A stretch of DNA of 64,000 bases from Scatophagus argus (lineage: Eukaryota; Chordata; Actinopteri; Scatophagidae), in contig NC_058499.1 of NCBI RefSeq assembly GCF_020382885.2, forward strand, positions 1,758,001 to 1,822,000, read 5' to 3'. The position numbers and the translations under genes were made by a program. This document shows positions 7,601 through 61,229 of the stretch, in pieces (position 1 is the first letter of the stretch; every line of letters starts with the position of its first letter). A model generated the notes under the pieces. It was given only the letters and a program-made list of their open reading frames with translations. It was not told where the DNA came from and did no database searches.

Positions 7601-9592
7601 CTGAAGAAGGAAGCCGATGCTTGTCTTTGGAAACCGGCTGGTAAGAGCAGCCGTGGCAAAGCGGACTGAATAATGAACCAACTGTTTCAGCACCGAACTG
7701 TTTTATTGTTAGCTCAGTTAGCCATGCGGCTAAAGTGCTGACTCAGGGTGCCAGGAGCCAAACCGGCCATCAGACCTGTCGCCGGACGCCGGGCTGAGAC
7801 GGCCAGCTGGACATCTGGCTGATTGATGCACAGTCAGCACCGACACTGCAGGCTTCCATAAACACCAGCCGACAGCCGTGATTGGTCAGAGACAGAAGCT
7901 CTCAGCCTTCAGTCCCTTGTGGACTCGAACTTTTTCTTTCATCATACTTGCTGATAAAACCAGCACACAGCACCACAAAGAGACTGCATTGCAGGTCTGC
8001 TGCAGGACCAGCAGCAGCGTGTGCAGAGTTAAAGTGACTGTACTGTACTGTACTGCTGAGTGAGGGCCGCCTTTGGCCCCGGGGCCAAGCTGACTCGCTG
8101 TCTGACGCTCCTCACAGATCTCCCTGCTCTGTGAGAGCCCCGCTGAGACATCCTTTCACTAGTCTGACAGGAGGAGGAGGAGGAGGAGAAGTTGCATAAC
8201 CCTCTCAGAAGAGTCTCAGGGAAGCTGACAGGGGAAGGCGAGATGACAAAGGAGGACTGAAGGCGCCTCCAGCAAATCTGCGGCCAAAATTTGCGCCCAC
8301 CACCCAGCAGGAAGAAAACCAAGCCCCCACATCAGCAGAAGTGGCTTCTTATAGCAGCGAAGCAGGAGGAGATGGTGTTTATCTTGTTTGTGTAATAAAC
8401 AGCTGCCAGGGGATTACATGTGTGCAGGGAGGGATGCGTGGGTCTCCACCAGGAGGGGGTTTCTGCAGTTCTGGTTTCCCTGCTCGGGTTGTCAGGCTCA
8501 CAGGAAGCAGGACAAAAACAGAAACACCGAGGCAAGAAAACCCAACAGGTGGGAGTCTCCTCACAATGTCAAGAAAAATATCTGCCGAATAAATTAAACG
8601 CATGAATATTCACTCACTTCTGTTGCTGGCTGCTTAACTCTGGCGACCTGATCCACATTTCGCATTTCTTTACATTTTAAATGAGAGAAGCCTCGAGACT
8701 GCAGCTCAGACGGGAGAATATAAAGGGTCAGAGACCGAAACAGCACAAACGTTTCATTCAAAACTACGGGGAAATGAAAAGAAAGAAATGGAGGCTCCAC
8801 AGGCTTGTCTCCTCGTCCACCTGCAGACGGACTGGACTGACTGCTTTACGTACTCATTGTGGGCCTTTGCACTTGCTTCTCCCTGATTCTCTTTTGTTGA
8901 ATGTGTTGACACACCTGTAAAGTGCCTTGAGATAACTAAGTCCAGTTGCATTCGATTGAATTTCCTTGAGATACACGGGATGTGAAGCAGCACAGGCCGA
9001 CCTCCTCCACCATCTCACACCAAACTGCAGGGATCTCATGCAGAAATTCACCTCTCGTTTCCACGGCAGCACAGCAGAAAACCACAATGAGCTTGTTTGG
9101 AAATGCAGTTCATCTTTATGGATTATACTGATGTGACAAGAGGGCTGAGGACATGAGGACACGAGGACACGTTCCATGTTGTGCTGCTAAAAGCAGTTTG
9201 GTGTGGCATTCAGGGAGGAGAGCACAGGGAGCTTCTGTTGAATTCAAATGCTGTTTGTGTATTTTTTAACTGTGAAAGTACGATAAGGTGGTCCAGCATT
9301 CAGAAATAATGTGCCTGTTGTGATCACTCGCAGCAGCTGATCACTGATCAGGCTTGCCTTAAAAATGACTGTGAGAAACAATGTTATTGTCATTTTAAAA
9401 CCATTTTAAGCCACTGAGAACAAATTCAATGACGTTTTTAGTCTTAAATAATATTCAGATACTGAAATGCAAAAAACATCAAAATGTCCCAACAAAAACA
9501 GAGAAATTCTCGACAAGTTTTGGTTGTAAAAAAATCAAAGGGGTGTCATGTTGTCCTCATAAAACAAAAAAAAGAGATTTGTGTGGTTTTAT

Positions 9593-42182: not shown

Positions 42183-42833
42183 GTGAGAATTCTTACGCTC
42201 GTCAGCAGAGACGTGCAGGTATTTCACTCCACAGAGGATTTTTAACTGGATGTTTTTGTCACAGTTTGGATTTTCGTCGCTGGGAGGAGGTCAGTCGGTG
42301 TGAATTTGTCAGCAGGCGATCCTGCGTTTCTTTCTGTCCGCTCAGCAGATGGACACAATAAGATCTGTCACATGTTTGTCTTGTCATGTTTACGGAGATC
42401 CTTCAATAGTCAAACAAAGTTACGTTTAGAATATTTAACTCATGCTTTATGTAAGGGACTGTTTGCTGGAAAACCATGTGACTTTGTGCAGGAGAGGAGC
42501 ATTTGGAAGCCAAGATATTCACTTCATTTGGAATCAGAAAATTCTTCAAATTTGAAACTTTTTGCTGGCCTTTGTGACAAATTTCACATATTTTCTGTCT
42601 CAGCCTACCTCAAAGCAGGTTATTCCAACAGTCAACAGGAATTAATTACTCATGTTAGCCGGATGATATGCCAGATGTTTTGGTTTCAGCTCGTTCTGCT
42701 GCCCCCAAGTGGCCAAAAGATCAGCTGATGTACTTTAAAGCTCAGGTGATTTGTAGTCAATGTGCTCAAAAATGCAAATGTCCTTGAAATGCTGTTAAAG
42801 AGCAGGACTCGCGTGTCTCGCCCCTGCACAGTG

Positions 42834-45800
42834 ATGAACACCTACGAGGAACACGGCGAAGAGGAGCTCAGTGACTCCATCATCCAGCTAAGTATTCAGG
42901 ACTCCTGCCAGGATGCCTTTCTGAAATCTGCAGCAAGGTATGGCAGCCACAGACTTCACCCTCCTCCAAATAAAACACCTTTGATAGTGTGATCAGGCCC
43001 AGCTGACTGCCCTGTGCCCCCTCTGCTCCTGGCTGTTAGTTTAACAGCAGCGACGGATGAAAATCTGAGAGTCCTGGCTGCCATCGAGCAAGGTAGGCTG
43101 GACATACCTTCACCATTACAGAGCGCTGTGTTTGGCCCGTTGGCCCTCCTCTGACAGTCACAAGGCCAGCAGCTGCAGGTGAGGACTGCCAGGCATCAGG
43201 AGGCTGGCAGTCCGACAGAGAGACGGAGATAAATAAACAGAGAGGTTGGAGAAAGGTGTAGTATGGGAGGAGGACAGGAGGAAGAGGAGGGACTGTGGAC
43301 AGATGTGAAGGAAAAGTAACATACCCAACGCTGGAGCTCTGGGTGTTTTCAAAAATCTCTCCTCTCTTCTTTCTCAAACCCTGTGTTGTTGTCTTGTCGC
43401 CGTGGTGACCAGGTGAGGTCTCGGTCCTCAGGGAAATGCTGAGCTGCACCTTCGCCTTCAGGGAGTCGGACAGTCGTGGCTGGTTGCCCCTCCATCGAGC
43501 CGCGTCCCAGCCGGTCCTGGAGGTTCTGGAGACCGTTTTGAGATGTGAGTCCATCTGGTTGGTGTAAAGCCACTTTCTTCATCTCTCAGATCGTTTTATT
43601 AGCTCCTTTCAGCGTTAAAGCTGTCACCATGTACAGCATGATCTTAGGAAGAGAAGAAGAAAAAGGGAAGTAGGTTCAACACCTGCTACTGCTAAGTGTA
43701 CAGTATGAACACTTCCTCCTACGAGCTTAATATTAGCTGATGTTTTTCACATTAACAAAGCAGGGGTGCGTGTAAAGAGTAATTACTGTTGGTTCAAAAT
43801 GTTCTACGATGAGATGCACGTTTATTTGATTCCTAAAAATGTTTATTTTGAAAGCTAAAAACCCAGCTTGATAATAAATGGTAAATGTATTCTGTATATT
43901 GGTTCTCTTTCCTCTGTCAGTGATGTGCTCATCTGGAAAATAACAAACCTGAAATCATTTTCCTCAAAGCCAGGGCCGTAGGTTTGGTTTTCAGCATCCA
44001 GGGCTGGGGCACATTAGTGTCAAACACTTCACTTCCTGCGTGGTTTTTTCTAATGCACTGATTTGTGTCTTTTTCTGCGGTAGTTAACAGTAAATTTATT
44101 TATGTAAAGGAAAGCACAAAATTCAGGCACCTGGTGACAAAACAGACTATAATGCAGTCATGGTTCCTCAAAATAAAAATTTTTAGGAGGGGAGTTTAGT
44201 GTTGAAATCTGTGCCTTCCAGGACACCTCAGGTTGAATGCAGGGGAGGCGACGGGAACGCTGGCATCATCAAAATAATGGCTGCCTGAAATAATATTAAT
44301 CCACAGAAAAGTCCACTGAGAAAAGATGCTGATGGCAGCTGATGGCAGCTGATGGCAGCGGTCCTCTCGGCCTAAAATAACCTGTGATGTCTTCTCTGGA
44401 GGTCAGCCAGCCGTGAGGTTCACCGACTCAGCTGCCAGGTTAGCACAGGTGGCATCACGATACGAACTCCAGGAATGTGAATGTTGACCCGTGTTGTGTT
44501 CGTGTCAGTGGCGGCTCAGGGGCTCAGCCTGGAGGAGAGGACGGCCGTGGGCGGGGAGACGCCGCTGACGCTGGCAGTCAAAGCCGGACTGGTGCAGAAT
44601 GTGAAGAGCCTGCTGGAGCACGGAGCCTCACCTCACAACGCCAACAGCAGAAACGAGTCGCCGCTGCTGCTCGGTAACGCTGCGAAGGCTGCGGGTCACA
44701 ACTTACATTACCCAGAAAACTACTAAATAAATAAAGAAAAACTGAGCAAAAAGATGCTAAAAACAGAACTTGTGTTAAGAGACACCTTTTACTGTACACA
44801 GACATCAGGTTCATCGTTCAACATCAAACATACTGACAAATGCACACAAACACGGCCGGACTGGGACCAGACAGTTTGACAGCAGGAAACACAGAACTGA
44901 GGGGTTTTTTGGTTTGCGTCCTGGCATCCCAGAGCTGAGTGGGCTAATAAAACAGCTAGCTCCACAGCTAACTGAGCTAACTGAGCTAACGGTGGTCACT
45001 TTAGCAACAATAAAAGCAGAAAACTCTTTGAATCACAGAGAGTTCAGGCAGAGCAGCTGGAGGACATCAGAGGGAAAACATTTTTCTCTTTAAACATGAT
45101 TCAAAGTCGTGTATTTGCACAACATCACTGAACCACAGACACTCGACTCCAGCAGTGCCAAGTTCAAAAGACACCACACTGGATGCAAAATTAATATACA
45201 AACACTGGCAAAAAGGTGATGAACTTAAGCTGATTTTTTTTTTTTTGCAGCGGTGAGGGCGGACTCTTACGAGATGACATGCACGCTGGTCGCTCATGGC
45301 GCCTGGGTGGAGCAAGTTTGCCGGAAGAAGTGGACGGCAATGCACGAGGCGGCCAAGGTAGGCAACGTGGACGTCCTGATGCTTCTGCTGAGGAACGGCG
45401 GCCGGGTAAACCACAAGGACGTGACCGGGGTGACGCCACTCGCCGTGGCTGCAGAGCACGGACATTTCCACATCACGGAGATCCTGCTGAGCTGTGGTCA
45501 GTTTAGAGACTGGGCGTGGAAGTGCATTAATGTGTCAAATCTCACAGAGGCAATGAAGAAATCATAGCACATTACAATACACCAAAATTAAATCGTTTGC
45601 TTGACAAAAGTCTTTGAAACAAAACATTTGACTCATTCTGACAGCATGAGGGATTTATCATTTTCCATTTTCAGGTGTGCAAAGGTCCAACCTGCCCTTG
45701 TGTCCTCCCTCTCTCCCCTGCTTAGGTAGCAGAGTGAACTCTCAGGCCTGCAATGGGGAAAGTGTCCTGCAGGACGCGGCCGGATCAGGAAACACCGCCT

Positions 45801-48800
45801 GCGTTCGGCTGCTGCTGGACAACGGAGCCGACCCCAATCTGCCCAGCGTCACGGGACACCTTCCCATCCACAAGGCGGCTTACGCGGGACACTACGAGTG
45901 AGCTCCAAGTCCCATTCATCCACACATCCTTGTAAAAAAGGTGGTGCTACGGGCTTCTTGACACGTGGCTAACACACTGGCAATAAGCTAGTGTTGGTCT
46001 GTCACTGTCAGTACCAGGCCATCAGTGTGACGTCTGTACGTTATTTCAATCAGTCAAGAGAAGCTTACTGAAGAGGGTGAAAACATAAAACTCTTGGAGC
46101 TACCTTGATAATTTGGTCGCTAACCAGACAACAGGTTTGTACAGTTTATGTACTTGTACCATGAGCTCCTGTCTGAAAACTACAGACCACTCTCCTCTCT
46201 CACGGAGCAGCTTATACTCCATCAGGTGAGGGGAAGTAAATGACACACAGGTATAAAACAAAGATGGCCTCCCCTCAGAGGTCAGCAGGGTCAAGACAGT
46301 TTGCTATTGGTTGACAGCACAATTTTGCATCACAAGTTCACTAAAACTGAACTCAACATGAAAAATTCACATGGAATTACTTCACCCTGAGAATAAATCT
46401 GCTGATTGCACTGATTTGATCAAAATCAATGGATTTCAGCAACAGTTTTAAAGGCTGGACCTTTAGGTTCGAGGTCTTTCTGACTGTTGATTGGAACCCT
46501 GTTTTCATTTTGCTCAGTGCTCTGAAGATGCTGATACCTCTGACCACCAAGAAGGCCATTAAGGAAGCGGGTCAGAGCCCGATCCACTCTGCAGCAGATG
46601 GAGGCCACCGCTGCTGTCTGGAGCTCCTGCTGGCCTGCAGCTTTGACGTCAACTACCGCATGAACACCAGAAACTCAGAAAACTACCGGGACATGAGGCG
46701 GAGCGCCTTGTACTTTGCAGTCTCCAACGGGGATGTGAACTGCACCAAAGTCCTGCTGGCGGCCGGAGCGAAGACGGACCTGGACCCGCTGTGCTGCCTC
46801 CTGGTGGCGGTCAGGTCTGGACACTACGAGATCGTGAAGCTGCTGCTGGCGGCCAAAGCGGACGTGAACTGTTACTTCACGGTGGTGAGCGACACGGCGT
46901 TTCCCACGGCGCTGCAGTACTGCCTGAAGGACGAGGTGATGATGAGGCTGCTGCTCAACAGCGGCTACAAGGTGGAGACCTGCTTTCAGTGTCAGCACGA
47001 CAGCATCTTTGATGGTGCAGATGAGGGGGAGGGGAAAATTCCAGTGAGTGATGACTGTTTTTGTTTTCTTTAAAGCAAGTGTTTAGTACATTTTTATTTT
47101 TTCACATTTTCTTAAATGCTTTCCTGCACGCTGCCCGTCTGTATCACAGTTTGTATCACGAGCCGCCAAATTCACACTCACAGCCAGACGACCAACTTCA
47201 TGTCACACTTGCTGTTACCACCAGCAACCACAGGTGTCACCAAATCAACCAGGGCTGAAATATCAGGGATTATTACTGTAATGTTCAGTTCCAGTGTTGT
47301 TTAAGTTTTTGCTAATTTTTTGCAACCCTATTAAGTTTAAAGTTGAATGCACAAGGATTAAAGATATTTTCAGATCGTTTAAACGTCTCAGCAGAGAAAA
47401 CAATTGGATATAAAAAGATCTGAAGTTAAATCTCTCTGTGTGAATGAGATCCTTAGTTACTGACAAAGACCACAAGAGGGTGCCCCTTCTTAAAAAGAAC
47501 AGAGTGGACGCAGCTGCATAGAAGAAGTTTGCTTTCATACTTTAATGCAGACTTCTAAAGAAAACACGGCTGACCTGCTGGATGTCTGTCCTCTCTCCAG
47601 TTTTGTGAGTTCATGAGCCTCTGCTGCATCGTGCATTTGGCTGGGAGCATCATCCGGATCCTGCTGGACTACGTGAGCCACGTCCACATCTGCTCCAAAC
47701 TCAGACTCATCCTGGAGAAGCAGGCCGAGTGGCCCGACATATGTGACATCCTCTGTGAGTTTATCCACGATTTGGTCAGAATTATCAGGCTGGAGAGGTG
47801 CATCGTCTCACCTGACGAGATCACACTTCAATGAAATAAAACTGAAATTAAAACAAAATCAAGCAGAGTCGTTACATCACACAGCAACAGACAGCACAGA
47901 CTGAGACGATCGCTCTGAGACCCGCTGATCATGAGGTCTGTCAGGAGCTGTTGGACTGATTGATCACACTGTCCAGCAAGACAGAATATCAGAATATTCC
48001 GTTTTTTTAGGGAAGGGAAAATAAATCGCTCACAAGCACCACCTTAAACACAAAGTTTTTCAGGAAAACCCTTTAAGACACAGTGTCCAAAACAAACTTA
48101 ACGACGTTAGAAGTTCAGGTAAAAAACGGACCGAGAGATCCAAGAACAACAAGCAATCAGTCCAGAAGGTCACCAAATTAAAGCAGGAACACATGAAGAA
48201 ACACAGAGAGGATAAAAACTTACTTAATAAAACAAGAGCACCAAACCCTGACACCTAACAGTTACAGAATAACATTATTATTCATTAGAGAAAAGGAAGT
48301 GACCTCTTTTAGCTCCGTTTTTGGTCTCCACACCTCCTGAAGGAAAGATCTGCTCTCTGTGTTCTCCAGCTCGTCTCTAGCTGGATTTTTACACCTCAGT
48401 TGAAACAAATGTCACGTGATACACTGAAAAACGCTGATTACAGCTGCTTTAAGGTCATGCTCCTCTGCGACGTCTTCTCCACTTCACATGAAGCATCAAA
48501 ATCCACTGTCAGTCGGTTTATATTAAACTGTCCTGAGTGCATTCCTGCTCTCCAGAAGATGAATCCTTTCAATCAATTTCAATAACTCGTCCTCAGAATA
48601 AACTTTTGGCTCCACTGCCGCTAAAACAGACCATCATTACGCTGCTTCCCACTGCGGCTGTAAAGATCACTGCAGCCTTAAGGGGGCAGCAGCAGCACTG
48701 GGGAACTTAAAGTTTCTTGTGTCTTTAAACAAATTTTATTACAGAATGAAAATGAATAAAGTGATTTTCTGAACCTTACCCTCCAGGCAGCCCTCGCTCC

Positions 48801-48962
48801 CTCAGACACCTCTGCAGACTGGAGATCAGGAAGCGTCTGACCCTGAAGAGACTCAGCAACCCTGAAATCATGAACTCACACATTTTCCCTCCCAGACTGA
48901 AGAGCTTCTTACTGTACCAGGAGCTCGATCTCTACAGCCAGGACCCTGAACGCGTCACGTGA
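42834..48962 (+). CDS. asb15: asb15, ankyrin repeat and SOCS box protein, first tandem copy
   Basis: ASB15 is a muscle-enriched substrate receptor for a Cullin-5/Elongin ubiquitin ligase. Nine coding exons join in frame to 575 aa: 42834-42937, 43040-43092, 43413-43544, 44509-44673, 45251-45496, 45726-45897, 46518-47043, 47601-47754, 48787-48962. The N-terminus has the ASB15-type IIQLSIQDS, resembling a ubiquitin-interacting motif. Ankyrin repeats fill exons 3-7: [94 protein letters not shown]. The last exon carries the SOCS box; its BC box [10 protein letters not shown] keeps the Cys, while the human Cul5-box LPLP is IFPP here. Human ASB15 is 588 aa. It lies head-to-tail with a second copy, and 192 bp of exon 7 is almost identical to that copy. 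Start: ATG just after the acceptor. Confidence 0.93.
46777..46968 (+). repeat. asb15: Near-identical tract shared with the second asb15 copy
   Basis: Sixty-four codons of exon 7 that differ from 53963-54154 at only 6 of 192 bases. The preceding 96 bases of the same exon differ at 30 positions. See the gene-conversion finding. Confidence 0.9.
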
Positions 48963-50292
48963 AGAGACCTGCCTGCGTTCAAAGGATGTAATTATTTTTG
49001 ATCTTTGTAATCTCTGGCTTTGATAGGCACAGCAGCATATAAATAACTGTAATTAACTATTATTATTTGTTATTTTTAAAGTACTATTTTATTAATTGCA
49101 ATTGATTGTGAGCAGATTGTAAAAAACTGAATCTGTGTTTGCAGAAAATGAAAATGTTGAAAATTTTTTTCTCACATTTCAGCCCATTTAATGCAAGTCG
49201 AATGTGTTTTGTATTTCAAGGTGATGATGATCAGTCCAGGAATATCTGTGGTCCTCAAACGCATCACTGTTGTTCCTTCACTACCATGAACACACACACT
49301 GTAGTTTATTTTGTCCCATTCCCACACACACACCATCCTGCCACAAGTACTCACTAGAGCTCCAAATGTGGATTAATCCGCTGCTGAAAATAGTCCCCAA
49401 CAACTAAGTAACATTTAAGTTAAATAAATATATAAACTCTTCACCGAGAACCAAAGACAAGGAAGTCAAAGTACTGAGAGACAGACCGACATGCTGTTGG
49501 TTTTGGTGAGCTGCGGCTTAAGATTATTTTCATTACTATTTAATCGTTTTCTGTGCAAAATAACAAAGAAATCCCAACATTTCGAAAGCTGCAACCAGCA
49601 GATGTTTGACATTTTTGCTTGAGAAGTGACTGAATTAATCAGTGATCACAATAGTCGGCAACTAATTTTCTTTTGATGGACCAATCAATTAATCGACCAA
49701 TCACGGCAGTTATTGACGATCACAGAGTAAATATCAGAGCCAATCAGTCAGTCAGCAGTCACCTGGTGCCTGTAAGGTGCGATATGTTCAGGACCCAAGT
49801 TCACTGGTTTATTATTTAGAATTTTGAAAGAAATTTGAATATTCAGTCAGTTCAGACAGACAGACAGATTGTCCTTTTCTGTGAGGATGTCCTTCATTTG
49901 GTGGACGACAGGAAAAACGCCCAGCAGTCCCCCAAACCAGTAGCATGTTACTGAGAATTGTCTTCTTGGCGTAGAAACGTGTTCAAAGTCGTTCGGATTG
50001 ACGGCGCTGACGAGGCGCGAAAAGGTCGAAGGTCCGAGGTGCGAGCCTGCAGCAGGTGGAGCAGCTCCTCGAGGCCTCTTCGTTGTTCCTGCAGGTTCTC
50101 GTCGATTGGCTGCCTCCCAGCGTTGGCGGTCTGATGTTAAATCTCAGTCTGATGAACCATAATAACACAATAAATATTCACACAACAGTGCGGCTCGTTA
50201 TTGTTTGTCATTAGCTGTGGAAAATGTGTGCGGGGTGACATTACACTCCATTAGGTGCTGTGGAAACGGCCTGCATGTTAAACACACTGGAA
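48963..50292. other. Spacer between the two asb15 genes
   Basis: 3' UTR of the first asb15 copy, then AT-rich unique sequence up to the second promoter. No exon and no mobile element that I can name. A plausible poly(A) signal AATAAA is at 49423-49428. Confidence 0.6.
49423..49428 (+). terminator. Candidate poly(A) signal of the first asb15 copy
   Basis: AATAAA, 461 bp past the stop codon. I saw no earlier canonical hexamer downstream of the stop. Confidence 0.35.
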
Positions 50293-50312
50293 CAGGTGAC
50301 ACCTATAAATAG
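50293..50312 (+). promoter_or_regulatory. asb15 (second copy) E-box plus MEF2/TATA core
   Basis: CAGGTG (an E-box, CANNTG) is followed by ACAC and CTATAAATAG, a perfect CTA(A/T)4TAG MEF2 site that also reads as a TATA box. Its geometry is identical to 42100-42119. A donor CAG|GTGAGAATCG follows at 50443. A muscle promoter is inferred, as expected for asb15. Confidence 0.7.
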
Positions 50313-50325
50313 CACCGTGAGAGAG

Positions 50326-50329
<4 letters not shown>

Positions 50330-50373
<44 letters not shown>

Positions 50374-50443
50374 CACCCTGAAACAAACTCCGTGCTGCTG
50401 CTGCTGCTGCGTCCTGTGACTCCAACGCTGACACGTTTATCAG
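50330..50443 (+). other. asb15: asb15 (second copy) non-coding first exon starting in a TG repeat
   Basis: The expected start, 25-30 bp after the TATA-like site, falls at the edge of a TG repeat of about 21 units (50330-50372). The exon then has a CTG run (50395-50409) and ends at CAG|GTGAGAATCG. The coding exon's acceptor is near 51355-51358 (GACGTCAGCAG). Exact limits are inferred. Confidence 0.45.
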
Positions 50444-50704
50444 GTGAGAATCGCTGCGTTCACGTTTCACTTCGCTTCAGGTGTGTTTTCTGAGTTCTCC
50501 CACGCAGAACGACGTGACCTCGACTGGACTGAGACCAGCTGCTGGGTTCTGACCAACAGCCAGGAGGTCGGGGGGTCACGGTGCTCTGAAAACACAGCTG
50601 ACTGGAAAACAACGAGGAGCCGCAGACCCGGGAAGCAGATGATTTACACTTTCATCTGAATTTACTCAGATGAACTTAAATCTGATCTCAGACGGATATT
50701 GAAT

Positions 50705-51130
50705 GTGTGTCAACATACTTGAGTACATTTACTTTTAGTACACATTTGAGCGGTTTAATTTTATGTTACTTTATACTTAAACTGCACTGCATGTCAGAGG
50801 GAAATATTGATTGTACTTTACCACGTGTATTTGATGAATTTAGTTACTTCACAGATTATTCATAGAAAATATCATCAAATAAAAGATGGTGTGTTATTAC
50901 AGATTAAGCTGTGCAGCATTAAGTGGACTTTGCACTAACATATCAGTGATTTCAACACAGGAATGTTATGTCTGAAACGAGTCGACGTGCGTAAAAAATG
51001 TTCTTTTGCTTTTCAATATATTTTGATGTAGATACTTTTGTGCCTTTATACAAGTCGAGTCATGATTGCAGGACTTTTAATTATAAGGGAGTATTTCTCC
51101 ACTGCAGTGTTGCTCCTTCTAAGTAAATGA
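50705..51130. mobile_element. GTACTT-type non-coding repeat element
   Basis: Starts near ACTTGAGTACATTTACTTTT, has TTATGTTACTTTATACTTAA, GTCAGAGGGAAATATTG and TTGCAGGACTTTTAATTATA, and ends near TATTTCTCCACTGCAGTG. This matches a non-coding element I recognise as abundant in teleosts. It lies in asb15 (second copy) intron 1. Related pieces are at 40028-40330 and 32808-32935. Confidence 0.6.
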
Positions 51131-51362
51131 TCTGGCCCTTTCAGACCAGCTTGTGGACCAGGATCAGTTTACCTCAGAGGAGCCGCTGCTGCCTGAGGCG
51201 AGGAAGAACCTCAGGCACGTGAGGTTCACTTAGCGATTAGCAGATTATCACCCAGAGAGTTTAGGCACCAGGATGTTCAGCTGGACGTTTCAGCAGGAAT
51301 CCCTGTTACTGTCAGAAATGAACTGCAGTGGTGACTTTGTGTACCTGTGCGACGTCAGCAGG

Positions 51363-54300
51363 ATGGATGCCGCTGATGAGATGGATGAAGACCAGCTTCT
51401 GGACTACGACGTTCAGATGAGCATCCAGGAGTCGTGTCAGAGGGAACATCCAGCAGGATCAGGGAGGTACAGCGACTCAAACCAACCTCAGGTCAAACCT
51501 TGACTGCTTCCTGGGACTGACCCTCAAATTCCTGTTTGCAGGTTTGGCAGTGAAGCTCTGAAGCTTGCGGAGGCCATCAAACAAGGTGAAAACATCAGCC
51601 AGCAGTAAACAACAGTGAAGTCAGTCATTTCCTGTTCCTGGCACATCTTACAGCTGCTGCTGTGATGAGAAGAACCACGAGCAGTAAGTCTGAGCACTGA
51701 GATACAAGTCCAACCTGCTCTCTGAATGTGTCCCTGCAGGCGACATGTTGGCACTACAGCAGCTCTGTGATTTCCCAGAAGCCTTCAGCCAGGTGGACGA
51801 GCGTGGCTGGTATCCCCTGCACAGGGCAGCGGTCCAACCTGTGGTCCTGGTCCTGGAGACGGTGCTGTACGGTGGGTAAGAGGTCCAAACTTTCATTTCA
51901 CATGACAGTCAGAGGAGAAGTGAACAGAGCAGCTGGGCTTCACTGGAACCTGCAAACTGCTTCTTCTGGATCGTTTCCATATGGAAGTCCAGTTCTGCCA
52001 ATGTGACGGAAAGAAATAATGATATCATAGTGAGACACTTTTCAAAAGTAATTAGATACTATCTCAAAGTAATGACTTAAAATCAAAAAGTGATGAGAAA
52101 CTCTCCTAAAATAATGTCTTACATCTCGATGAGTTATCATCTCAAAATAATGCAAATCAATCTCTAAATTTGCACGGGTCGATGACCTTCTAACCCACAA
52201 AGTTCAGTAGATCCGAACTGATTCCATCAATGAAGACTGTTTCAGACACGGATTCACAAATCATGAAGTCTTAATGCTTTGGAGCAATCTTCTGGACCTG
52301 ATGATGGTATCGCTTTAGACCTCCCCAGCTTGATTCTGCTGCTTGGGCACGTATGAGGAAGCAGCGCCAAGGCCTAAATCTCAAGAATTTTTCTCATCAT
52401 TCTGAAAACGTTTCTCACTATAAGGACGTACAAGATCTTTCTTCATCATATGTTAATGAGCTTCTGTCAGCATCTTCTCTCTGTTCATGGATGGTCATAG
52501 GAGCTGAGTTCGGTGAAATCGTGTTTTTGCTGTGTTCTTCAGCATCTTTCAGTCTGACTCTGGAGGAAAAGACTTCAGACGGTGAGACCTTCCTGACGTT
52601 AGCGGTGAAGGCTGGTCTGGTGGAGAACGTCAAGATGCTCCTGGACCACGGAGCTTCTCCTCACACCACCAACAGTCAGAACGAATCCCCTCTGCTTCTC
52701 GGTGAGAGCGCCGCCTCTCCAACACTTGAGTATATTCTGTCCATCGTCACCGTCAGTTCCTCATCCTCTCCTGTGCTCCTGTGCAGCAGTCAGAGCCGGA
52801 TCTTATCAGATGGTCTCCAGTCTAATGGCCGGAGGAGCTCGGGTGGAGCAGGTGTGCTTGAAGAAGTGGACGGCCATGCACGAAGCCTCCAAGGTCGGCT
52901 GCGTTCAGGTCATGGAGCTCCTGCTGCACAACGGGGGTCAGGTTTCAGAGACAGACCAGCATGGGGTGACTCCTCTGGGCATCGCTGCAGAGTACAGCCA
53001 CCCCGAGGTCCTGGAGCTCCTCATCAAACACGGTGAACACACAACCACACGTTCTTTAATGTTCTCACGTTAACAGTGCGCCAAATAAAAGGGTCAGATT
53101 CCCAAGGTCACAGATAAGTGAAACGGCTTTGTACTCCAAAATGATTATTTTCTGCTTTAACATGAAGGTGCTGATGTGAACGCGCAGGCGCCGAATGGCG
53201 ACAGCATCCTGTACGACGCTGCGGGTTCAGGGAATCCTGACTGCATTGACATCCTGCTACAGCACGGAGCAAATCCAAACATCTGCAACCTGAGCTCCCA
53301 GCTGCCCATCCACCACGCCGCGTACGAAGGGCACTACCTGTGAGTAGGTCAGGTGATCTAAACACCTGCTGGATGAACGCTGAGCGCCTCGGACCGCTCA
53401 AACGCAGACACGTCTAACAATCAGATTTCAGGTTTAGTTCCTTTGGTTCCATAGGCGTTCACACCCCAATCGGCTTTCTAAAGGTGGTCACCGATGTAGC
53501 ATCGTACAGGAAAAAATTGATCAAAATCAATTCAGCACAAGATGTATGTTTATTTTCCACACAGTCTTCCCACATGTCAGCACTTGGCGCCTACATTACC
53601 CACAATGCACCCCAACCCCCAACTGATCTGTAAGAATTTTTTATGTGGGTTAGTTTCTGATGCGTCCTTTCTTACAGAATTCTTAAAGAATTTTCTCTGT
53701 CAGAGCTTTGAGGATTTTGATCCCGATCACCACCCGACGGGCCTTGCGGCTGTCCGGCCACAGCCCCGTCCACTCCGCCGCTGACGGAGGCCACGTCCAC
53801 TGCCTGGACCTCCTGCTGCAGAAAGGTTTCGATGTCAACGCGCTGTTAGCTCCTCATATCTCTGAAAACTATGGAGACAGGAGGAGAAGCCCGCTGTACT
53901 TCGCTGTGTCCAACGGGGACGCGACCTGTACTGAGATTCTGCTCAAGTCTGGAGCCAAACCTGACCTGGACCCGCTGTGCTGCCTCCTGGTGGCGGTCAG
54001 GTCGGGACGCTATGAGATCGTGAAGCTGCTGCTGGCGGCCAAAGCGGACGTGAACTGTTACTTCACGGTGGTGAACGACACGACGTTTCCCACGGCGCTG
54101 CAGTACTGCCTGAAGGACGAGGTGATGATGAGGCTGCTGCTCAACAACGGCTACGACGCCATAAAGTGTTTCTGCTGTAACCATGACGACGACTGGGAGG
54201 AGCTGAGTGAGTCTGGTTACTCACAACATCAGGAGGAAAAGATTGCTGTGAGTTCCTCTCTTTTCCGTATGAGTAATTATTAAAATGATGTTTCAAAGTA

Positions 54301-55444
54301 CGAAACTTAGCCGACAGCAATGGGTTGACTGGTCTTAGGCAACCTGGGGACGGCTGCAACAAAACGTATTCCTCCAATCAGGAACATGCTTGAGTGGTGA
54401 CACCGACGGCAGACGTCAGCTGCTGATATCTGCTGACGTCTCCAAAAACTCGCACCAAAACTATCTGGATGACTAAAGCGCAGTGCAAAACGTGGTTTTA
54501 ATTTTGGGGTGCACCTTTAATTGTGTTGCGCCTGTCCCCATTTGGAGTGCAACATCTGACTTGTGGCATTCAAATAAATATTGTGAACAATATTTGGTGG
54601 GTGGTGTGTCAAATCCACCTGACTGCCAGAACCCGAGCTTTCTGCAGGACATTAAAGTCTGAGCAGATGATTGGTGCTATTCACTTCACCTGTCAGTGGT
54701 TTTAATGTGGTGGCTGATTGGTAGATAGCAGAAAGGTGTACGTTTAATATAAAAACGTGGTCCATCTAGTTCAAACTGTCTATAAGTAACTGACAGAAAT
54801 ACTAAAAACTGTCCTCAGGCTGCCCTGTTTGAGTTTCAAACAAAGACTACACGTTAAAAAACCTTTGGTCATAAGACACATGACTGCATCAGAATAAACA
54901 GAACATCTTTGTGTTGGGACTCTCGGTCAGACACAATGAGATCGTCCAGACGCAGCCTGCGTCCAGCACAGATTCTCATCGGCTATTCAGCAGCAACCTC
55001 ACTGTGTTGGCTCAGTGTTGTTTTGTTTGTCCAGTTTTGTGATTTCGTCAGCGTCTCCTGGCTGGTGAACCTGGTGGGCCGAGTCGTGTCGATCCTCCTC
55101 GAGTACGTCGGTCAGGTTTCCCTCTGCGGCAAACTGACAAAAATCCTGCAGAAACACGACGAGTGGCCTCGCATCCACAGGACCACACGTGAGTTAAAGA
55201 CAGACTGAAGAGCTGAGCATCAAACCAGGAGATGCACCTGCTGACGCCATGTGTTTCCTGTCAAACTGCTGTTCTCTGTGATCCAGGTAACCCGCGCTCT
55301 CTGTCTCACCTGAGCAGAGTGGTCATCAGGAAACACCTGAGCTGCAGCGCCCTGACGTCCATGCAGCTGCCCAACAGGCTGAAGGACTTCCTGCTGTTCA
55401 AAGAGAACGACCTGTACGCCAAAATCATCTGCAGGGAGGACTGA
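51363..55444 (+). CDS. asb15: asb15, ankyrin repeat and SOCS box protein, second tandem copy
   Basis: Nine coding exons join in frame to 570 aa: 51363-51466, 51542-51585, 51740-51871, 52543-52701, 52787-53032, 53168-53339, 53704-54247, 55035-55188, 55287-55444. Exon phases equal those of the first copy, and exons 1, 3, 5, 6 and 8 have the same lengths. The N-terminus, [20 protein letters not shown] then IQES, is closer to human ASB15 than the first copy. Ankyrin repeats include [73 protein letters not shown] and [20 protein letters not shown]. In the SOCS box the BC box reads [10 protein letters not shown]: the Cys that contacts Elongin C in the family is Ser. The Cul5-box area is [19 protein letters not shown]. 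The gene may have changed its ligase partner. Start: the ATG aligned with the human one; an upstream in-frame ATG at 51273 lies in the intron. Confidence 0.93.
53963..54154 (+). repeat. asb15: Near-identical tract shared with the first asb15 copy
   Basis: Partner of 46777-46968, same reading frame, 6 differences in 192 bases. Confidence 0.9.
54530..54725. mobile_element. Remnant of a DNA-transposon-like repeat
   Basis: The right part reads TTCACTTCACCTGTCAGTGG then TTTTAATGTGGTGGCTGATT. I recognise this as the end of a common teleost repeat. It lies in intron 7 of the second asb15 copy. Left limit uncertain, no coding content. Confidence 0.4.
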
Positions 55445-55789
55445 GGGGAGAAGGACTTCTGTCTTAAAATGTCTTAAATGTCAGTTCAGATTTTTTACCT
55501 GACGAACGCACTGTACGACTGTGAAAGATTTCCTTCATGCTGTTTCAAAGGGGCATTCACCAAAATCCTCTCTGTCCGCGGCTGTTGTGACATCGGCAGG
55601 TAGTTGCCGATCGGGTGAGGTCTGGGACTCGAGTTCTGGATGATGGAACCTCTTCACTGTGACTCTGTTTGCACAAATATAAGAGACAAGGTGATGCTCA
55701 GAACCAAGCGAAAACAGGTAGGGCTCTTAAATACAAGCACTCACTTCCTGAGCGGGGGAGTGGATGCTTATTAAACAGGTTAGATTTGG

Positions 55790-55795: not shown

Positions 55796-58361
55796 AGCAT
55801 GTCTCTATAAACCCGTTCAAATAAAGATAACATTTGAGAATGATCAGCTTCACTGCCACATTTCTACCCGCTGTAAACACATTTGAGTTGGATTTTATTA
55901 AACTTTTGTGTTAATCTGATTCATCAGCTGGGAATCATGAATGTCTGCACTTACTTTTGGGACAATCCAGATGTTGTATGTGGAAAGATCTCGCTGAGTA
56001 GGTGATACTTTGACCTGCAGGTGTTGTCACACAAAAACTTCATCACCAAAGTCATCATAATCAGGATACCATGAATGTCTGAGCCAAATGTCAAAGCAAT
56101 TCATCCAATAGTCGTCCCCCCCATCTAGTGGTCATTAGATGAACTGCAGCCGCTGAACGACAACAACACAGTGGACACAATGAAGAGGCGTGATCGGCTC
56201 TAAATTTAACCTCCTGACCTGCAGAAACAACGACAGCCACAACAACTTGGCTCCACATTCTGGCGGGTCACCCGAGAACCTGATAACAGGAAGAGGTCAC
56301 GCTGATTTGAACGACCTCCAAACCTGTCGACACCAGCTGGAAGTCACATCTGAGAGCAGAAACGAGGCCCTGAGCGTTAAACTGAGACAATAAAACAAGC
56401 AGCATGTGACATATGGCAGGCTTTTCAGGTGAGGTAACACCTCATCCAGCAGCCATACTGGAAGACCTCTGCTCTCAGAACAGCTGAGCTTCTGTGTGTT
56501 TGGATTCAAGTGAGCACAAGCTGAAGCAGCATTAAAGCTGGAACAAGTTTTGATTTGAAAGAATCCAACCACAAAAACAAAAACAAAAGCCAGCACCTCC
56601 CTGGGAAACTTTGATAATCATTCCAGTCACTTTTCTTGTTGGGTGCTCTTAGCTTCTCCTTGTGGAAGAGTAAAATACGTTTTGGCCACTTGGGGGCAGC
56701 AGAATGAGCTAAAAACACAAAGCTAACAAAGTAAAATGTTTATTAGAGCTCATTGTTGGAATAAATATATCGATTAGTGCTGATACTACAAACAAAACCA
56801 TAAAATTTGTTCAGTTTAACATCTCTGGTTCACATTTTTCAGTTGTGTCAAGTGTCAAAATCATCAGTTATTAAATGAGCATCTACTGTGACTGATTATC
56901 TCTCTTTGAGCTGCTTATGGTAAAAAAAGCCTGAAACCAACAGCTGCCTGGAGGGAAGAAAATTAATTTGTATTTATTGGGTTAAACATGCAGAAACCAG
57001 TTTGGTCCCCTGTCTTGTAAGTGAACCTGTGTCCACTCTCAGACTGCGCTGATGCTAATCAGCAGTAATCCGGGTCAGAGGTCAAAACTACAGCAGATTT
57101 GGGATGAGGTTGGTGTTATGTCACTCTGAGTCTTTTTACTTCAGACGTGTAACTCGATACGACCGCCAAGCAGCTTGTTAGACTCGATCAGGGATGGATG
57201 CATGTTGTTACCGAGCAACCACACAACAAACCCCGACGGCCGAGAGTCGGTCCTACGCGTCCATACATGTGACGAGGGGAGACAGAGTCAGGCCTGCCAT
57301 CAGGGGGGAGCTAAAGGGTACAAGGTGCAAAGAAACTATGACTGATCAAGAACAAGAACTGGCTGACTGGCCTTCATCACTGACAACACAATTTATAATT
57401 TAAGTAGTGTTAGCACAACTGACATGAAAAAGCTGAAGAACTGAAGTGATTCCTGCTCTGCTTCTGGACATTGGATTAGATACAACCCAACTGTGTTACT
57501 GAGCTCATTCTTAAGTTTAAATCATTCAGCAGTTCTGGAGCTTTCAGTCATGTCATCAGCGGCGGCTTCATGGTAAGAACCTCACATGTTTAATAAAACA
57601 TTCAGGATTCCTCGTTTGTGCCGGATGAGATTTCTCTCATGTGCTTCAGCTTTCGTTCATGCTGCACAGAGATGATTGTTTTCACTGCTGATGATCACGT
57701 TTCTTTGGGGACATAAGCCATAAGTTTTGGACTTGATATGGCTTAAGTTGTAACCAGTCTGTGCTTTGTTTCTGTTCCACCAAACGTCCATAAAAAAGTC
57801 TAAGAACTCAGTCTGTCCCGACGTGGCGCTGACGTGTCCTGGTGTAAACAGTCCACCATCAGTCCTCCTCAGTGCCAGCCGGAGCTGTACTGTACATAAT
57901 CCTGCATTCCTCGGGGAGAACAAGTGTTTCCCTGACGACACCACAAACCTCGGCGTGTTTCTGTGTCCTGACATGTTGCGTAACGCCGCAGAGCTTCATC
58001 CCTGATGTCCCCCCGCGGCGTTTTGTTCCCGTCGTTTCTTTTGAGGCACGAGCTGCTGATGAGCTCTCGGCACAGGCCACTCAGAGGGCTCACATTCCTG
58101 CCTTAAGCCTATCTCACTGACCCCCCCCAACACAACACCCTAAAAAAAGCCAGGACCATCAGAGGCGTGGCAGCCCTCCCCTCCACCCCATCAGGATCCT
58201 CTGGCAGCTGGGACCAGCAGACGAGTGAGGGATCCCTGATCTGAAAATCTGGTGGAGGACAAGTCACTGAGCAGAACAACAAGCGTGAAAATTTAATCAA
58301 GTGCACAAGGATAGAAAAGTGTTGAAGTTAGAGATTTAGGTGTTCATAGAGTTGTAGAGCC
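55796..58361. other. Intergenic region between asb15 and lmod2
   Basis: No exon is supported. The part just upstream of lmod2 holds a CAGCTG E-box in CTCTGGCAGCTGGGACC (about 58199-58215) and a CCCTAAAAAAAG element (58138-58149) that is only loosely MEF2-like. I see no clear TATA box or CArG box. The transcription start of lmod2 is not located. Confidence 0.5.
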
Positions 58362-61229
58362 ATGAGTACCTTTGGGTACCACAAGGAGCTGAAGAAGTAC
58401 GAGGAGGTGGACGAAGACGAGCTGCTGGCCGCTCTGTCCTCCGAGGAGCTCCAGGAGCTGGAAAGGGAGCTGGCCGACCTCGACGACAACGTCCCCATCG
58501 GCCTGAGACAGAAAGACCAGACCACCAAAACCCCAGTGGGGGCCTTCGACAGGGAAGCTCTGCTGAAATACTGGGAAGACGAGAACAAGAAGCTGCTGGA
58601 GGACGAGAGGACAGAGTCCATAGCTGGACAGGTGAGACAGGATGACGAACACACTCAAAGGACAGAGAACTGCACAGAGACTACATGTCACATCCCTGCT
58701 GGTTAAATAAGTGTGCCGAAATGGGTTTTTTGTTTTGTATTTTTGTTACTGCTCACACAATCCTTTACATCCTTACATATTTATTACCAAAAGTGAACCT
58801 TATCTGCAGCTGACTTCGAGTCCATGGATGTTACACAAGTTTGAATTCACTGCAGGCTGATGTTAATAGAAAAGCAGTCAAGGAAATCAACTTAAAAACT
58901 TCATTAAAAGGAATGCGACATTAGGTGTTTATGTTTCACGTGCAGGCTTTTCTTGTGCTTATGCATAAACCCAGTGCTATAACACATATTATAATGAGGC
59001 AGAAGGTGTCACATGTATCCAGCGTGCTGGAAAACAGTCTAAAAATAAAGACTGTCTGAGAAATGCCAGCTTAAATGACTGTCTGCCAGTGTCGGAGAAG
59101 GTTCTTAATTAAAAGTCAGGGGCTGGCGAATGTCAGGGTTCGAACTAATTTTCTGTGCCGTCACCGTGTGCAGGAGGAACGTCCAGATAAGAGCAGAGGG
59201 GAGCGAGTGACACTGACCACCGGCGACGCCAACAAGACTCTGGACAGTGACAGGAAGAAGACTTCACAAAAGGGGAAGAAAGCAAGTGTCTTCAGCAAAC
59301 ATGATGGCAGGGAGGCAGAAAAGAAAGACGGTCCGATTAGGAATAAATGTCATCAGAAGAACGGCCTGTCAAAAGGCTCGAGGAGGACTGAAACCACGGA
59401 CCAAAACCTGAACACAACCTCTGACAGGCCAAGCGGCAACCCGACAGTCCTTGACAAAACTCTGGAGCAGGTCCTGTGTGACGATCCCACCGTGGGCGAA
59501 GTCAACCTCAACAACATCGAAGACATTTCCCAGGAAACCTTGCTTCGTTTTGCTGAGGCCCTGTGCACAAACACTCACGTTCACGTTTTCAGCCTGGCCA
59601 ACACTCACGCCGACGACCGGGTGGCCTTCGCCATCTCCAAGATGCTCTGTGAGAACCGGTTCATCAGAAACCTGAACATCGAGTCCAACTTTGTGTCTGG
59701 TCAGGGAATCCTGGCTCTGCTGGCGGCTCTGCAGCACAACAAGACTTTGGTGGAGCTCCGCTTCCACAACCAGAGGCACATCTGCGGTGGGAAGGTAGAG
59801 ATGGAGATGGTCCAGCTGCTGAGGGAAAACTCCACTCTGCTCAAACTGGGCTATCAGTTTGACCTCCCAGGCCCGAGGATGACGGCAACCAGCATCCTGA
59901 CACGCAACCAGGACCAACAGCGACAGAGGAGGCTCCAACAGAAAATGGAACAGAGTCCCCCAGAGGTGTCGGGACAAGGTTCTGGTTCATCAGCAGAAAA
60001 CAGACCGCCAAAGAAGCTGTCAAAAACTTCTAAGACTGACGAAAACCAAAACAGGAATCATCCTCCTCCTCCGTCTCTTGACCCATCAACGAGGAAGATC
60101 GCAGAAATGGTCAAACAGCACGAAGGCTTGAACAACACAAAGAGTCAGTCAAACCAAAGGAAGCCCAAGTCAAAGAAGCTCAAGAACGGTGCCAGTGAAA
60201 AGGAGAGCGCCGATGTTCTCAAAGACCTGAAGAACGCCCTGAAGCCATCACCGCAGAAGAGGCGAGACGAACCGTCGCACCTGCCGCTGCCACAGAGATC
60301 GAGCCGCAATGACCTGATGGCGGCAATTCGAGGGAGCAGCATCAGGTCTTTAAAAAGGGTAAGACTCCCTCCGAGTCTGTCTTTGATTGCTTTGTATTTG
60401 AAGTTTGCAGGAATTTTGTTTTGCTTGAGTTAAAGCACCGCAGACATAATTTAGTCTCCAAAAGCCATCAGACCACCTCAGTGTGAACGCCGGCTGTCAC
60501 CAGACGACAGCCTCTGTCATTCGCTGAATTCCTCGACTCTCCGTCAAGTTATTAATAGTTTGACTTCTTCACTGCTGTTTGATAAGACCGAAGGCTCAGA
60601 GGGCTGATGGGAAGAGAGCAGACCGGCTGGAAAAAGCAAAGTGTGGTCCACCCACGTTTAAAGAGCTTTAAAGTGTAGCTGGCAGTTGGACAGTGAGGGA
60701 CAAACATTCAGTGTCACGATACTGCTGGCAAAATGAGTTTCGTGAAATCTATTTGGACAACAACTTCCGGTATTAAAGAATACATGGGAATATAAATGCA
60801 TGGCCTTATTATTTTGTTCTTTGAGATAAAGCTCACCAAGGAGTCCACTATCAGGAAAGGCTGAGCAGGGAGGCCAAACCGCCTCAGTGTCTCAATATGA
60901 CGATTGCACAGGAATTTGAGCTGAATTATTCCAAACATCATAAAGGTACAGAACATACTGTATTCCCTTCATAACAAGGTCAAACCATGAAAACAACCAC
61001 AACAGATGTTTTTGAAGCCTCCAGCAGAGACAGTTGAACAGAGCCAAAGTGGAAACTCCTCTGGGAGAAAAGTCCAGTTTATCTTTGCTTTGAAGGAAGG
61101 TCAGACAAACAGTTTTGAGACGTGACGTCTGGTTTATTTAAGTGTTTAACGTGCTGTGGCCTAACTTGTGTGTGTGTGTGTGTGTGTGTGTGATGTTTGT
61201 CGTTCCAGGTGGATCCGTCACAGGCCTGA
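58362..61229 (+). CDS. lmod2: lmod2, leiomodin-2
   Basis: Leiomodin-2 nucleates actin and lengthens thin filaments at pointed ends in striated muscle. Three exons, 58362-58631, 59174-60358 and 61209-61229, join on codon borders to 491 aa (human 547). Exon 1 starts MSTFGYHKELKKYEEVDEDE and holds the tropomyosin- and actin-binding N-terminus (LLAALSSEELQELERELADL, VGAFDREALLKYWEDE). Exon 2 holds the leucine-rich-repeat actin-binding domain (residues about 179-343: EVNLNNIEDIS, FSLANTHADD, LRFHNQRHICGGKVEMEM, LPGPRMTATSILTRN). After it come a short proline run HPPPPS, Lys-rich stretches, and a WH2-type end, LMAAIRGSSIRSLKR, finished by the tiny exon 3 (VDPSQA). The acidic linker of human LMOD2 is replaced by a Lys-rich one, and the long polyproline is nearly gone. 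Start: family-typical MSTFGY. Confidence 0.95.
61167..61192 (+). repeat. (TG)n at the lmod2 exon 3 acceptor
   Basis: Thirteen TG units in lmod2 intron 2, ending 16 bases before the first base of the 21-nt terminal coding exon. The repeat stands in for much of the pyrimidine tract. Confidence 0.9.

Follow-up and report, generated by a model that had tools for sequence, protein, structure and literature searches.

Ectopic gene conversion, in which repair uses a non-allelic template, is an established process in general (PMC3758752), and it has been described for neighbouring duplicates that can be compared with the two tandem asb15 genes of the fish Scatophagus argus analyzed here. Like the asb15 pair, the tandem red opsins LWSa and LWSb of medaka are fish tandem duplicates that are older than their present likeness (PMC6389941). 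A part of the opsin gene, which begins in the second half of exon 2, reaches exon 6 and includes introns, is closer between paralogues than between the two sister species compared, and at least two conversions have been inferred (PMC6389941). In the asb15 pair, unlike the opsins, the likeness covers 192 bp within one exon, the remaining coding sequence is saturated, and a single genome is at hand. Exonic tracts between tandem paralogues, as in asb15, have been detected with GENECONV in the Nav1.1-1.2-1.3 and Nav1.4 genes (exon 26a/26b) of salamanders, where, among the rows listed, tract length ranges from 56 to over 626 bp and the number of differences from 0 to 25 (PMC8476164). These cases come from several species, and some of the tracts include a known adaptive residue (PMC8476164), whereas the asb15 pair comes from one genome and has no known adaptive effect. 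Interlocus gene conversion in general likewise involves neighbouring duplicates, with tract lengths estimated to be on the order of 10 to 100 bp (PMC3924818). Its rates, however, are reported to drop strongly near 80% identity (PMC3924818), and the exon flanks of the asb15 tract are 48-64% identical.

The two genes, copy 1 (c1) and copy 2 (c2), lie in the window studied here, a stretch of 64,000 nt that contains no N bases (contig NC_058499.1, positions 1,758,001 to 1,822,000 of the forward strand; coordinates below count from its first base). An earlier reading made from the letters and open reading frames of this window (hereafter, the sequence-only reading) reported that positions 46777-46968 and 53963-54154, in exon 7 of each gene, differ at 6 of 192 bases. 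This count is exact (186 of 192 identical, 96.9%), and in our models of both genes the tract falls within coding exon 7. The tracts are 64 residues long and are spaced by about 7.2 kb. These stretches and their flanks, with the proportion of synonymous sites that differ (pS), are as follows.

46777..46968, + strand: very probable conversion tract in c1, exon 7; residues 378-441; pS 0.042 vs 0.646 elsewhere
53963..54154, + strand: very probable conversion tract in c2, exon 7; residues 373-436; same evidence as for the c1 tract
46518..46776, + strand: c1 exon 7 upstream of the tract, diverged flank; c2 counterpart 53704-53962; 86 codons
46969..47043, + strand: c1 exon 7 downstream of the tract, diverged flank; c2 counterpart 54155-54247; 25 aligned codons

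Both edges of the tract are sharp, as seen in block identities and in the best scored segment for all sites (46788-46968, see below). The 96 bases that precede it match at 66 positions, which is the divergence of 30 previously counted there, and the entire flank before the tract has a nucleotide identity of 0.640 and pS of 0.688. Past the tract, identity is lost again as claimed: matches fall to 10, 12 and 6 positions in the successive 24-base blocks, and nucleotide identity over the downstream flank is 0.480. This end of exon 7 is poorly conserved, and c2 is longer there by 18 bases. Two of the six differences within the tract are synonymous, so that third codon positions are nearly all alike, in agreement with the sequence-only reading; yet the other four change the protein (H/R, S/N, A/T and S/N). 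That reading also placed the tract before the SOCS box, which holds for the order of the two; they do not adjoin, because 77 c1 residues lie between them.

The likeness extends to synonymous sites. Nei-Gojobori counts for c1 and c2 (564 codon pairs from the 575 and 570 codons of the two genes, with codons facing gaps excluded) yield 2 synonymous differences per 47.3 sites and 4 non-synonymous differences per 144.7 sites in the tract, vs 228.3 per 353.3 and 354.7 per 1146.7, respectively, in the other 500 aligned codons. The resulting pS is 0.042 in the tract (95% Poisson interval 0.005-0.153) and 0.646 outside, and the lowest value among the 374 sliding windows of 64 codons that are clear of the tract is 0.472. 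Degenerate codons that encode the same amino acid in both copies are identical in 56 of 58 cases in the tract and in 129 of 263 elsewhere (Fisher 3e-13). Codon usage in the rest of the genes predicts 27.1 matches among these 58, and the tract's own codon usage, the most conservative expectation, predicts 43.5 (P 4e-6); a permutation of codon identity stratified by amino acid never reached the observed value (0/20,000; 0/3,000 with correction for the scan). The tract has 60 of 64 residues identical, and none of the 462 windows of 20 codons elsewhere attains 18 identical residues. Where 17 of 20 residues are identical, as in 17 windows elsewhere, pS is 0.53-0.84, which upholds the claim that protein constraint alone fails to explain the tract, although the control is close rather than perfect because no window reaches the residue identity of the tract.

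A nucleotide search of the source genome (570.7 Mb, 48 contigs), in which the best candidates alone were scored, found the tandem pair plus, on contig C22, two further pieces; these candidates included no additional locus, but a fourth copy is possible. On the C22 stretch, a third asb15-like gene (c3) precedes a second gene resembling lmod2 (frame at L007 3732-4037); given this gene order, the C22 block looks like a genome-duplication partner of the tandem block. For the three-way alignment, c3 was modelled from exon 3 to exon 9, with exon 7 cut short at its end (495 codons); two codons at this cut end align arbitrarily in the three-way counts. Introns with GT/AG boundaries split the c3 counterpart of exon 5 once (L006 7457-7563 / 7682-7820) and that of exon 7 twice (L006 8526-8686 / 9102-9246 / from 9345), and the tandem copies lack all three. 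The extra introns reflect either gain in the C22 copy or loss in the tandem pair. One of them lies inside the counterpart of the tract, at the codon aligned with 46822, and beside this site a ten-base span (46818-46827 in c1, 54004-54013 in c2) holds three of the six differences of the tract; this clustering was noticed post hoc and may be due to chance, and we make no claim from it.

Outside the tract (431 codons), the three genes are nearly equidistant. Amino acid identity is 0.566 for c1-c2, 0.550 for c1-c3 and 0.587 for c2-c3, and sites at which two copies agree against the third are distributed 202:173:189 (c1-c2 first), so that a star phylogeny is not rejected (chi-square P 0.33). With pS of 0.636 for c1-c2 and 0.716 and 0.695 to c3, all near saturation, the tandem pair is slightly closer at synonymous sites. 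The tandem duplication thus appears to date from about the time of the C22 split or somewhat later. Within the tract (64 codons), the site patterns change to 53:3:2 in favor of the tandem pair (Fisher 5e-17 against the outside). There, pS to c3 is 0.579 and 0.586 for the two tandem copies, and same-amino-acid codons are identical to those of c3 in 24 of 42 (c1) and 24 of 41 (c2) cases, vs 56 of 58 between c1 and c2. The sequence-only reading had allowed that selection on codons could account for the likeness; because the tract codons of c3 in the same genome are not kept alike, codon-level selection common to these genes fails as the explanation.

A conversion test was performed by permutation in the style of GENECONV, with our own script on the three-way alignment rather than with the published program; three sequences are few for such a test. 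Over all sites, the best scored segment between c1 and c2 is 46788-46968, with a score of 43.9, compared with 14.9 for the highest of 10,000 shuffles (0/10,000). Over silent sites, the best segment is 46788-47617, with a score of 17.7 vs 15.7 for the highest shuffle (0/10,000); it extends to 47617 because there are few silent sites past the tract. The longest unbroken silent run between c1 and c2 comprises 11 sites, which was reached by 26 of 10,000 shuffles. When the tract was removed, this permutation found no scored segment between c1 and c2, and there was none between c1 and c3 with or without the tract. Nor did silent sites yield a segment for c1-c3 (902 of 10,000) or c2-c3 (8639 of 10,000).

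Among the explanations considered, the one put forward by the sequence-only reading, gene conversion between the tandem asb15 copies, fits best with what was tested, namely, the pS contrast, the site patterns relative to c3 and the permutation. Thus, two old tandem genes have very probably undergone the non-allelic (ectopic) gene conversion that produced the tract. Under this scenario, exon 7 of one copy would have suffered a break or gap that was repaired with the other copy as the template, and the repair would have overwritten about 192 bp. The exchange may have been repeated over a long time, each round using the near-identity left by the preceding one, while the introns and the remaining exons drifted past the reach of recombination, and G/C was perhaps favored at mismatches. 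After the last exchange, the copies would have gained the two synonymous and four amino acid differences. When these six differences are polarised with c3 (70% identical there), three appear derived in c2 (46818, 46889, 46961) and two in c1 (46823, 46827), and one is uninformative (46897), so that no donor direction emerges. In exon 7 before the tract, nucleotide identity to c3 is 0.674 for c2 and 0.574 for c1, and in the tract it is 0.70-0.71; this could be taken as a weak hint of c2 as the donor, which we do not use.

The tract may have been converted either once, recently, or repeatedly. We lean slightly toward repeated conversion, and a 192-bp island of long-running concerted evolution, reconverted with GC bias since a duplication about as old as the C22 split while its surroundings became saturated, seems to us nearly an even prospect. 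In the codon alignment, the longest exact match is 15 bp outside the tract, compared with 63, 61 and 41 bp inside, and a blastn comparison of the two gene regions (E up to 1e-3) gives 7 matches, all on exons. For efficient ectopic recombination, the minimal identity quoted is 132-232 bp for mouse and 337-456 bp for human (PMC3758752), and about 200 bp of identity is quoted for rodents, with conversion rates falling steeply near 80% identity (PMC3924818). Because a tract diverged like the rest of the gene would leave exact matches of about 15 bp at most, a single recent conversion between fully diverged exons would be hard to start, whereas a stretch that had stayed alike since the copies were young could keep converting. 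Furthermore, G/C at third codon positions (GC3) is found in 59 of 64 tract codons in both copies, vs 384 of 511 (c1) and 359 of 506 (c2) in the rest (P 0.0016 and 9e-5, respectively, with adjustment for amino acids), and in 43 of 64 codons of the c3 counterpart, which is not above the rest of c3 (P 0.28). GC-biased repair would leave such raised GC3; one copying step would not raise GC3 in both copies unless the donor already had it. One single recent event is the simpler count, and low divergence in the tract fits a recent date; we regard it as a serious possibility that falls somewhat below even.

Several points weigh against the scenario outlined above or against its more specific parts. 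Conversion with about 10 bp of identity is reported in experiments, apparently in yeast, that are cited in PMC3924818; this agrees with a single event, weakens the case for recurrence and leaves it an argument rather than a proof. The tandem pair is richer in GC3 throughout, with 0.78 (c1) and 0.73 (c2) outside the tract vs 0.60 in c3, and strong third positions outnumber weak ones relative to c3 by 18:3 in the tract, which does not differ significantly from 127:47 (c1) and 114:58 (c2) outside (P 0.29 and 0.08). The case for GC bias is thus mixed, and such a bias is likely at best. A weak, nominal c2-c3 segment is detected over all sites at 45424-45447 (217/10,000; 388/10,000 without the tract) and is absent on silent sites. 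Codon matches to c3 are slightly raised in the tract, at 24/42 vs 104/232 for c1 (P 0.18) and 24/41 vs 106/249 for c2 (P 0.06), which makes some local constraint possible there. Finally, the scenario is drawn from a single genome, and any timing, recurrence or direction in it is tentative.

This slight rise in codon matches is among the points that speak for purifying selection, which, acting on the protein and on codons (for example through an exonic enhancer, a splicing signal or an overlapping frame), would have kept the 192 bases alike since the duplication. The tract also lies in a conserved ankyrin stretch (amino acid identity to c3 of 0.66-0.67, vs 0.55-0.59 outside), and it is crossed by long antisense open frames in c1 and c2. 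Such selection is nevertheless largely refuted by the third copy, given the tract pS to c3 reported above, and it is hard to reconcile with the high pS of conserved windows elsewhere or with the fact that four of the six tract differences alter the protein. The second frame of the + strand, open in c1, has a stop within the c2 tract, and no Rfam family reaches the gathering threshold in 42800-55500. Altogether, we consider selection as the cause highly improbable. An assembly or polishing artefact, in which reads from one copy were assigned to the other, is very unlikely as well: the two tracts differ at six bases and four amino acids, both copies lie on one 26.9 Mb contig in a window without N, and with flanks of 48-64% identity misplaced reads would hardly be expected to end after 192 bp. 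If gene conversion took place, its template could have been a spliced RNA copy (cDNA) rather than the DNA of the neighbouring gene. The tract is confined to one exon, and the extra introns in the matching region of the C22 copy, including the one at the codon aligned with 46822, indicate that introns were lost or gained in this family. However, nothing requires RNA, and the tract, which reaches no intron of either tandem copy, cannot reveal intron removal; a cDNA template is very unlikely.

The tract is a well-supported example of a known process, and its recurrence is a mildly interesting question. In any tree of this part of exon 7, the duplication would wrongly appear recent, although the distance between the copies is about the same as that of either to the C22 copy. 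If conversion was repeated, the tract would show, as a small natural experiment, how short a homologous island can be and still convert amid diverged surroundings, and it would likewise be a test of GC bias in such an island. In openly licensed full text, we found no paper on gene conversion in asb15 and, for gene conversion in asb genes with ankyrin repeats and a SOCS box, two papers, both on other subjects.

The models of the two tandem genes were built by hand from splice sites, the open frame and the c1-c2 alignment, that is, from sequence alone.

42834..48962, + strand: asb15 copy 1 (c1), coding span; 9 coding exons; 575 codons plus stop
c1 coding exons, + strand: 42834-42937, 43040-43092, 43413-43544, 44509-44673, 45251-45496, 45726-45897, 46518-47043, 47601-47754, 48787-48962
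51363..55444, + strand: asb15 copy 2 (c2), coding span; 9 coding exons; 570 codons plus stop
c2 coding exons, + strand: 51363-51466, 51542-51585, 51740-51871, 52543-52701, 52787-53032, 53168-53339, 53704-54247, 55035-55188, 55287-55444

Both genes are intact, each with a single open frame across nine coding exons with matching phases, and the internal exon joins have AG ahead and GT behind (some of these, namely coding exon 2 of both copies and the start of c1 exon 3, were read by eye). Over 564 aligned residues, the two proteins share 58.3% identity. Both have the architecture of the ASB family, with ankyrin repeats (Pfam Ank_2, 5.6e-70 and 1.4e-53) and a C-terminal SOCS box (26.5 and 40.7 bits, cut-off 23.5; residues 519-560 in c1). 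The name asb15 follows the sequence-only reading, the human protein and the gene order beside lmod2, and is provisional. Searches of PDB sequences with c1 exon 7 (best 60 of 301 matches) and with c2 (best 60 of 349) gave ankyrin-repeat proteins, with no ASB named among the matches listed, and these are of no help on the direction of conversion. A protein search of viral contigs with 46513-47039 as the query (which includes 5 intron bases and ends 4 bases before the exon end) gave 12 pattern matches and no relative. A degenerate DNA pattern covering part of the tract found nothing in viral contigs and, in genome contigs, one Bacteroidales stretch (L001), which was used in no count.

Deletion of Asb15b in zebrafish is said to reduce intermuscular bone, and a reduction of 30-40% is reportedly quoted for asb15 in a citing paper. 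Downstream of the tandem pair, at 58350-60433, there are Leiomodin-2-like frames, which presumably belong to lmod2. On the minus strand, open frames at 46675-47082 (135 codons) and 53846-54220 (124 codons) span the tract in c1 and c2, respectively, and are likely a by-product of high GC3.

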